64,000 nucleotides of DNA from Ridgeia piscesae (Eukaryota; Annelida; Polychaeta; Sabellida; Siboglinidae), in NCBI GenBank assembly GCA_025642075.2, contig JAODUO010000048.1:382001-446000 (forward strand), given 5' to 3'. This document shows positions 9,421-12,400 of the stretch, in pieces; position 1 is the first letter of the stretch; every line of letters begins with the position of its first letter. The notes under the pieces are model-generated. The model made no database searches and was not told where the DNA came from. It worked only from the letters and a program-made list of their open reading frames with translations. A program made the translations under genes and the position numbers.

Positions 9421-12400
9421 TCACTCCTGCGTCTCCATCTGTTCCTCTGCTCCGTTCTTTCCATCTTCATCTTTCTCCACCTTTTCAAATGCCTTGTCTG
9501 ATGGTGTTACGACAACACCCTCCCAAACACTCATCTCAGTCGCTATCCCTGCAACAACACCAGTGGCGATGCAACAATATCATCCCAAACACTCATCTCA
9601 GTCGCTATCCCTGCAACAACACCAGTGGCGATGCAACAATATCCTCCCAAACACTCATCTCAGTCGCTATCCCTGCAACAACACCAGTGGCAATGCAACA
9701 ACACCCTCCCAAACACTCATCTCAGTCGCTATCCCTGCAACAACACCAGTGGCAATGCAACAACACCCTCCCAAACACTCATCTCAGTCACTATCCCTGC
9801 AACAACACCAGTGGCGATGCAACAATATCATCCCAAACACTCATCTCAGTCGCTATCCCTGCAACAACACCAGTGACGATGCAACAACACCCTCCCAAAC
9901 ACTCATCTCAGTCGCTATCCCTGCAACAACACCAGTGGCGATGCAACAATATCATCCCAAACACTCATCTCAGTCGCTATCCCTGCAACAACACCAGTGA
10001 TGATGCAACAACACCCTCCCAAACACTCATCTCAGTCACTATCCCTGCAACAACACCAGTGGCGATGCAACAATATCATCCCAAACACTCATCTCAGTCG
10101 CTATCCCTGCAACAACACCAGTGACGATGCAACAACACCCTCCCAAACACTCATCTCAGTCGCTATCCCTGCAACAACACCAGTGGCGATGCAACAATAT
10201 CATCCCAAACACTCATCTCAGTCGCTATCCCTGCAACAACACCAGTGGCGATGCAACAATATCCTCCCAAACACTCATCTCAGTCGCTATCCCTGCAACA
10301 ACACCAGTGGCGATGCAACAATATCCTCCCAAACACTCATCTCTGTCGCTATCCCTGCAACAACACCAGTGGCGATGCAACAATATCATCCCAAACACTC
10401 ATCTCAGTCGCTATCCCTGCAACAACACCAGTGGCGATGCAACAATATCATCCCAAACACTCATCTCAGTCGCTATCCCTGCAACAACACCAGTGGCGAT
10501 GCAACAATATCACCCCAAACACTCATCTCTGTCGCTATCCCTGCAACACCAGTGGCGATGCAACAATATCATCCCAAACACTCATCTCAGTCGCTATCCC
10601 TGCAACAACACCAGTGGCGATGCAACAATATCATCCCAAACACTCATCTCAGTCGCTATCCCTGCAACAACACCAGTGGCGATGCAACAATATCCTCCCA
10701 AACACTCATCTCAGTCGCTATCCCTGCAACAACACCAGTGACGATGCAACAACACCCTCCCAAACACTCATCTCAGTCGCTATCCCTGCAACAACAACAG
10801 TGGCGATGCAACAATATCCTCCCAAACACTCATCTCAGTCGCTATCCCTGCAACACCAGTGGCGATGCAACAATATCATCCCAAACACTCATCTCAGTCG
10901 CTATCCCTGCAACAACACCAGTGGCGATGCAACAATATCATCCCAAACACTCATCTCAGTCGCTATCCCTGCAACAACACCAGTGGCGATGCAACAATAT
11001 CATCCCAAACACTCATCTCGGTCGCTATCCCTGCAACAACACCAGTGGCGATGCAACAGTATCATCCCAAACACTCATCTCGGTCGCTATCCCTGCAACA
11101 ACACCAGTGGCGATGCAACAATATCATCCCAAACACTCATCTCAGTCGCTATCCCTGCAACAACACCAGTGGCGATGCAACAATATCATGCTTGTTTAAC
11201 GAGTGCGCACTACTCTCACAGCTATAAGCCAATCAGAGGCCCGCTATCAGCCCCGCCCAGCAGCCAGTGATGTTTGTTTACAGATAAGCCTCTGGGATAA
11301 GTGCTCCTATTGGCTAAAGTTGACATCAGTGGGGACTCCTGCTACAAGAATCCGAACTTTCCTGTAGTACCAAAATGTCTGCCATGTGTTGAGGGAAGCC
11401 CCGAAGAATGCAACTCAAACGAGTGCAATTTATTGGTTCTATTTTTACGAAACTAATGCGTGACATTTTATGTAGTCTTTCTAAAAAGGCCATAAGATGT
11501 ACTAAATATGAATGAGAAATAAGCATTGCCAATTGACCGAAAAGATATTAAAGTATACTTTTTTTGTGACAAAAAGTCAAAATCATAAAAAAATCATTGT
11601 TGTTTATTTCGTAAAACATGCAAACATCTACTTCCAGCTGTAGCTCACTCTGGTGATGTTGATTACCAACCTGCATTCCCCTCAAGTCCGAGGATCTGTT
11701 TGTATCCACCATGACTGAGTACACGCAGCAATGTCTGCGCCGTGTAACACACTTGGTCCTGTCAACAACACAGCAGTGTAACACACATGATGCTGTGAAC
11801 AACACAACACAATAATTATACTTGATGCTGTCAACAACATTGCATAACATACTTGACAAAACAGCTGTGTAACACACTTGATCCTGTCAACAACACAGCT
11901 GTCTAACACACTTGATCCTGTTGACAACACAGCTGTCTAACACCCTTGATCCTGGTGACAACACAGCTGGTAGCACAACTGAACATGACAACAACATACC
12001 ATAATAAAACATGTGCACCTTTCAACAACAGCAATGTAACAGAGTTGAACATGTCAGCAACACAACACACCATAACTCATATGATCTTGTCAACAACACA
12101 GCAAAATGTAACACACTATCCTGCCAATAATACAGGACAATACAACATGCCTAGTCCACACACGTAAGCTAGCTAGGATTATTTTAATCAATGCAAATAC
12201 TGCATCGGCTTTCACTGTGAAACTGTCAAAATTCCTACCTATCTGCTGAACAAATATTGAGTTGACCCCCTCACCTCTCTACTGAGTTGAATGGTCTAGA
12301 ACTATGGAGTTGCCCCCTTATTGCTCCACAACGATTGAGATGTATCCATAATGCACTGATTACCGACATGCCCCATTGCTACTCAACAACTACCGAGATG

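Follow-up and report, generated by a model that had tools for sequence, protein, structure and literature searches.

Minisatellites that straddle a splice boundary, known as 'mirages', have been described in amphioxus in the Adh3, globin, troponin C and PGBD5 genes (PMC3087553, PMC3902484), with PGBD5 added by the second of these reports, which in its available sections cites Adh and troponin C. In the parts of these sources that could be consulted, the amphioxus cases (BflGb6/BflGb9, Adh3, PGBD5 and troponin C) share with the last intron of the ILF2 gene of the tubeworm Ridgeia piscesae a boundary minisatellite whose units carry cryptic splice signals and which lies beside the functional boundary. 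The boundary involved may be 5' or 3' in amphioxus and is 3' at ILF2 intron 11, and the host is an annelid as opposed to amphioxus. The ILF2 unit is 62 bp long, as compared to 150-160 bp in amphioxus globin and 10-72 bp in Adh3 (10-160 bp across the named cases), and there are 27 copies with 95% matches, where two amphioxus BflGb6 haplotypes are described with 6 and 3 units. Splicing at the amphioxus mirages has been followed by RT-PCR, whereas the ILF2 array is known here from sequence. A literature search conducted mostly outside subscription journals, and partly among the matches listed, found no report of mirages outside lancelets, and the available text on earthworm metallothionein, seabream myostatin-2 and worm minisatellites describes no boundary-spanning array. 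The kind is thus already known, and the annelids are, as far as could be seen, a new phylum for it.

Outside lancelets, the nearest case in the literature available is on the donor side: the variable-number repeat in intron 18 of human ABCA7, also a tandem repeat within an intron with a splice site supplied by its unit, with long alleles that measured 837 and 9711 bp in one person (PMC5954066). The 25-bp ABCA7 unit starts with a donor and its effect on splicing has been shown, while the ILF2 unit consists of an acceptor plus exon sequence and no GT in the intron 11 array scores above 4.1 as a donor. Another related process is the intron gain by tandem duplication of AG/GT proto-splice sites proposed by Rogers (as cited in PMC3087553), which like the ILF2 array involves tandem duplication copying exon and splice-site sequence. 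In that process a donor and an acceptor are both supplied and used, as opposed to ILF2, where no new intron is present, nearly all units lack a donor-like GT, and the acceptor appears to have been copied without a good donor.

The ILF2 gene and the anatomy of its intron 11 array

The window (the whole 64-kb stretch of DNA that was analysed) contains a gene spanning 10.6 kb that an earlier note had identified as ILF2 and in whose intron 11 it had placed the array. Both points are borne out by a spliced model with GT/AG introns throughout, in which 12 exons join to encode 382 aa; the product matches Pfam DZF_N and DZF_C, both above their curated cut-offs, and aligns to the ILF2 chains in the solved structures 9gtz and 4at7. 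In an ILF2 tree the window protein groups firmly with a single database protein, P0001, inside an open group with Capitella. Cytochrome b from the mitochondrial contig (C3158) points to the vent tubeworm R. piscesae (Annelida, Siboglinidae) as the most likely host: it matches that species at 100% identity over 96% of the 300-residue query, with 98% for Oasisia alvinae and 96% for Tevnia (99, 97 and 95% in a full alignment), while a search with COX1 yielded no useful relatives. The features at the 3' end of the gene are as follows.

9421..20029, minus strand: ILF2 coding region, 12 exons, 382 aa (spliced model, Pfam domains, structure alignment)
9421..9548, minus strand: exon 12, last coding exon, functional acceptor 9548/9549 (spliced model; C-terminal residues of P0001 agree)
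9512..9548, minus strand: first 37 nt of exon 12, identical to the starts of units 7, 17, 21 and 24 (unit comparison)
9549..11670, minus strand: intron 11, the last intron, 2122 bp, donor CAG/GTTGGT at 11671/11670 (spliced model)
9549..11154, minus strand: 26 decoy units, 24 x 62 bp and 2 x 59 bp, with GGATAG after TTGCAG (junction splitting)
11155..11189, minus strand: partial unit at the far array end, 35 nt identical to the sequence preceding the true acceptor (unit comparison)
11190..11602, minus strand: interspersed-repeat piece, cut at both ends, joined to the array at ATGAT (final letters placed by eye)
11671..11758, minus strand: exon 11 (spliced model)

Tandem Repeats Finder reports the array at 9521-11189 with a period of 62, 27 copies, 95% matches and a score of 3023. 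Each unit joins 37 nt resembling the start of exon 12 to 25 nt resembling the end of intron 11, such that the acceptor junction TTGCAG/GGATAG occurs 27 times, once as the functional site at 9548 and 26 times as a decoy, with first exonic bases running from 11154 down to 9548. The 26 spacings between junctions measure 62 bp in 24 cases and 59 bp in two, where the unit lacks three bases. The array occupies 1641 of the 2122 bases of intron 11 (77%). The earlier note, which had described a unit of about 62 bp repeating the acceptor/exon junction, about 27 copies with about 26 decoys abutting the acceptor at 9548, and an intron made up mostly of the array, was correct in these respects; of the span it had given, 9501..11189, the far end stands, and the exon-side limit moves to 9512, since identity with exon 12 runs for 37 nt (9548..9512).

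A chance origin of the junction copies is excluded, because 26 places reach at least 20 of 28 matches to the junction 28-mer and the best in any of 60 shuffles is 20/28. The earlier note had also allowed that the identity with exon 12 might come from an unrelated repeat elsewhere in the genome, and a search of the 628-Mb assembly, which scores the best candidates and skips common words, returned 27 matches, all of them in this array. Where array and exon overlap, comparison of the proteins shows that the exon, and not the repeat, is the ancestral part, because the exon 12 peptide TEMSVWEGVVVTPS is common to the ILF2 proteins of Capitella, Pinctada and Branchiostoma. With a duplicated boundary carrying up to 37 nt of exon, a unit of minisatellite size, and an array that runs into exon 12 with the conserved protein completed, the locus reads structurally as a mirage.

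On its upstream side the array joins a fragment of an interspersed repeat, for which 39 other copies were scored (76-80% identical, out of 849 first-look candidates). This piece is cut at both ends, so the original far edge of the array may be lost. Together with this transposon piece the array accounts for about 96-97% of intron 11, which illustrates one route of intron growth; the available part of the genome report gives R. piscesae a greater mean intron length than three other tubeworms (PMC9921365).

Two readings would make the array something other than a repeat grown at a splice site. The first, that copy number or even the whole array is an artefact of assembly, is very unlikely. Copy number is taken from a single assembly, the published R. 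piscesae assembly, possibly the one used here, is described in the available text as put together from contigs of short reads (PMC9921365), which would hardly resolve such arrays, and base errors are likely in the mitochondrial contig, where COX1 falls into two matches with internal stops (G000:C3158:12438-13633). Against this, there is not one N in the 64 kb of the window or in the 194595 bases of the 60 loci surveyed below, some of which hold similar arrays; the units carry ordered variants, including the two 59-bp forms; and a second, diverged mirage in ILF2 itself (below) is unlike a misassembly of identical reads. The second reading, that the array encodes protein on the plus strand, where stop-to-stop frames at 9877-11199 and 10125-11270 would allow 440 and 381 aa, hardly deserves any weight: the unit has few antisense stops and a length that is not a multiple of three, which leaves all three registers open, and it is the repetition of such a unit that would account for the long frames.

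Origin of the array and the choice among acceptors

It is highly probable that the array is a 3' splice-site mirage, that is, an acceptor-straddling minisatellite that was duplicated in tandem, grew to 27 copies and has been tolerated with splicing kept at 9548. A segment across the intron 11 acceptor (25 nt of intron end and 37 nt of exon 12) would first have been duplicated, and slippage or unequal exchange would then have brought the number to 27. The ordered variants among the 27 junction copies are consistent with such growth, and the units hold some trace of how it may have begun. The eight letters GGTGTTGT occur both at exon 12 +30..+37 and at intron 11 -13..-6, and in exon-like units the identity with exon 12 stops exactly after them, which suggests that the array was born by duplication between these short matches, although this model leaves over eight further unit letters, TCGCCACT. 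A second unit type reads GATATTGT where exon-like units have GGTGTTGT. From unit 16 to unit 23 the exon-like and the other type alternate, as exchange of two-unit blocks would leave them. The exon-like variants GAGGGTGTTG are found in 5/10 of the decoys nearest the exon and 1/16 of the others (P=0.018, with the cut chosen post hoc).

Several decoys are close copies of the true acceptor. Over 180 nt, from -143 to +37, the sequence at decoy 17 (10168) does not differ from that at the true site, and the same holds for decoy 21 (9920) over 116 nt, from -79 to +37, such that these two can be distinguished from the true site only outside these limits and by copy order. Within -62..+37, two of the 26 decoys have no mismatch and two have one; the counts at decoys 6 and 11 (40 and 43) are due to the preceding 59-bp units and that at decoy 1 (24) to unique upstream sequence. 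In the textbook view an acceptor is chosen by branch point, pyrimidine tract and AG. In this intron decoy 17 and the true site share all 180 nt, which leaves position, or exon sequence past +37, as the source of any fidelity. Because some decoys match 9548 exactly at the local level, something else must set the choice, which may be the part of exon 12 that follows +37, the 3'-end signals of that exon, or simply being the last acceptor. Pairing within the unit RNA (z -1.78 for one unit, -2.61 for two) would act on the true site and most decoys alike. ILF2 intron 11 is a clean natural experiment, in which an old question of acceptor choice is directly testable.

Under the simplest scanning rule, the first AG after the branch point is used. 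With a branch point upstream of the array this rule would favour a distal decoy, which counts against the reading of the array as a mirage with splicing kept at 9548. Were a decoy to serve as the first junction of the last exon, the outcome would be uniform, as all 26 lead in the same frame into a near-identical tail of 21-22 residues (..SVWDDIVASPLVLLQG or close variants, without the acidic end) and then a stop, in each case a TAG brought by the next unit; the acceptor at 9548 alone gives the conserved 42-residue end. The DZF_C match reaches residue 355 of the product, so a decoy product would change the last matched residues and lose the acidic tail. Decoys could not easily serve as small extra exons, to judge from an array almost devoid of donor-like GTs: two score 4.1 and the others at most 1.2, on a matrix derived from the eleven true ILF2 donors, which themselves range from 4.0 to 12.2 (ten at or above 8.1, one below 8).

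Evidence on the ends of ILF2 comes from P0001 (381 aa; contig of 1334 nt, source label lgn), which is identical to the window product at 375 of 381 residues (98%) and whose C-terminal residues match the exon 12 prediction exactly. The contig presumably represents spliced RNA, because it is far shorter than the 10.6-kb gene, and it would be one transcript that ends correctly. Given the six differing residues, P0001 may come from R. piscesae or from a near species, possibly one without the array, and from a close relative it would not prove acceptor choice in the presence of the array. Because the protein database was clustered at 90%, the four members of the P0001 cluster might include an unseen truncated isoform; no short tail of the decoy type was seen among the matches listed, 120 of 850 ILF2 proteins.

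The regularity of the decoy tails could also be taken to indicate a working regulatory device, in which part of the splicing goes to decoys and yields one short-tailed ILF2 isoform, at a ratio set by copy number. The shared frame and stop of all 26 decoys would suit such a device, as would the position of the stop in the last exon. A stop in the last exon is not expected to trigger decay through exon-junction marks. At the human ABCA7 repeat, donor decoys are indeed used, with one repeat unit retained, according to the available text (PMC5954066). This reading is nonetheless improbable: repetition by itself yields the common tail with no need for selection, the short tail was not seen among the ILF2 proteins listed (120 of 850), and an older array in intron 10 has lost its AG in 3 of the 10 best-matching copies, as neutral decay would have it. 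The mirage reading is preferred, with the array most likely a side effect of minisatellite turnover, tolerated because exon 11 would still be joined to the exon-proximal acceptor at 9548. The growth route, the neutrality and the faithful choice of acceptor in R. piscesae are what we infer from the above.

Boundary-spanning arrays in intron 10 and at other loci

Another example lies one intron upstream, where two repeats were found.

11742..12135, minus strand: older acceptor mirage at intron 10/exon 11, 34-bp unit, 11.9 copies, 67% matches (Tandem Repeats Finder, junction matches)
12456..12529, minus strand: 30-bp repeat, 2.5 copies, starting exactly at the intron 10 donor (GTGAGG), with no exon sequence

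The intron 10 acceptor, TGTGTTGTTGACAG/GACCAAGTGTGTTA, recurs at 9 places with at least 20/28 matches (best 27/28), a level not reached in 60 shuffles (none above 18), and the AG is kept in 7 of the 10 best copies. Among the 22 ILF2 junctions, the acceptors of introns 10 and 11 are the only ones with copies at or above 20/28 within their own intron. A donor mirage including exon sequence at intron 10 was considered and rejected, as the repeat there lacks exon bases and the top match of 16/28 was equalled by 13 of 60 shuffles.

In the ILF2 model of the pearl oyster Pinctada imbricata (P0002), the exon preceding intron 10 has its end repeated in four tandem copies with a 39-residue period, together with three copies of about 30 nt that open with a donor-like sequence; gene and protein position are both those of intron 10 in the tubeworm ILF2. 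The exon-end copies continue into VRTHLSKVH, a stretch that resembles a donor plus the beginning of an intron, and the start of intron 10 in the tubeworm reads VRGHLS in the same frame as this donor-like stretch. The oyster repeat is on the donor side and known from a predicted protein, as opposed to the acceptor arrays seen in DNA here. The ILF2-like model of Larimichthys crocea (P0106) has internal repeats at offsets of 48, 49 and 97 residues.

Exon loci of two families picked beforehand were surveyed for similar arrays, namely the chaperonin TCP1 (30 of 50 matches) and kinesin (30 of 128 matches) families. Two of the 60 loci (L056 and L059), whose hits contained more than two stops, were set aside, and ILF2 was excluded from the count. 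Boundary-spanning arrays were found at 5 of the 58 remaining loci, on the acceptor side at L024 (identified by eye), L025 and L044 and on the donor side at L055 and L058. One such example is a chaperonin gene (L025/L034, G000:C17) with a 48-bp acceptor mirage of at least 32 copies, the locus end cutting the array, and the unit GTGTGGTGAGTGTCAG/ATGTACTGAGACTGTTGTGTCCAGGTGGTGGT; another is a kinesin gene (L058, G000:C895) with an 85-bp donor mirage whose unit consists of about 29 nt of exon and CAG/GTTAGT. At L042 and L076, pyrimidine-rich arrays abut the acceptor and contain no exon sequence, and L039 is a 470-bp duplication; none of these was counted. The earlier note had called such an array unusual, a judgement that no longer holds with mirages known in amphioxus, a second one in intron 10 of ILF2 and five others at the surveyed loci (one by eye): the range of mirages now takes in an annelid as well as lancelets, and in this annelid they are not rare.

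Whether splice junctions are favoured sites for such repeats was approached in two ways, with mixed results. The 58 loci hold 78 merged arrays over 25186 of 187257 bases, and uniformly placed seeds would give 1.36 boundary-spanning arrays, as compared to 4 found by rule (P=0.049) or 5 with L024 by eye (P=0.013), on loci that partly overlap (L025 and L034 share one array), which makes the 58 non-independent and counts some arrays twice. Of the 230 exon-edge windows, in contrast, 8 had same-strand copies, as did 2 of 111 mid-exon windows and 46 of 317 random flank windows, the edges being those of profile hits as opposed to mapped splice sites; exon edges are thus repeated less often than flanks, which argues against a hotspot. 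Donor-like motifs of at least 7 bits occur in 12 of 57 units as compared to 30 of 285 control segments, and shuffling the 57 units gave a median P of 0.37, with 6/57 below 0.05. That splice junctions are preferred birthplaces of minisatellites here and in distant animals (annelid, oyster and lancelet), with splicing able to put up with many acceptors, some as close to the true one as decoys 17 and 21, and acceptor choice set wholly outside the acceptor region, is a tentative idea, and one we consider rather doubtful.

In the window, a search with the bacterial code found no tRNA genes and Rfam gave no match at gathering score. A 588-aa open frame at 5072-6838 (plus strand) matches STELLO glycosyltransferase, and a retrotransposon-like element at 53328-56305 (plus strand) has a PHD-finger frame followed by a reverse-transcriptase frame. 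Two further arrays, neither assigned to an exon, contain donor-like motifs: one at 21904-25065 with 87 copies of a 36-bp unit that contains CTG/GTAAGT, and one at 35927-37526 whose units are rich in AG/GTGAGT.
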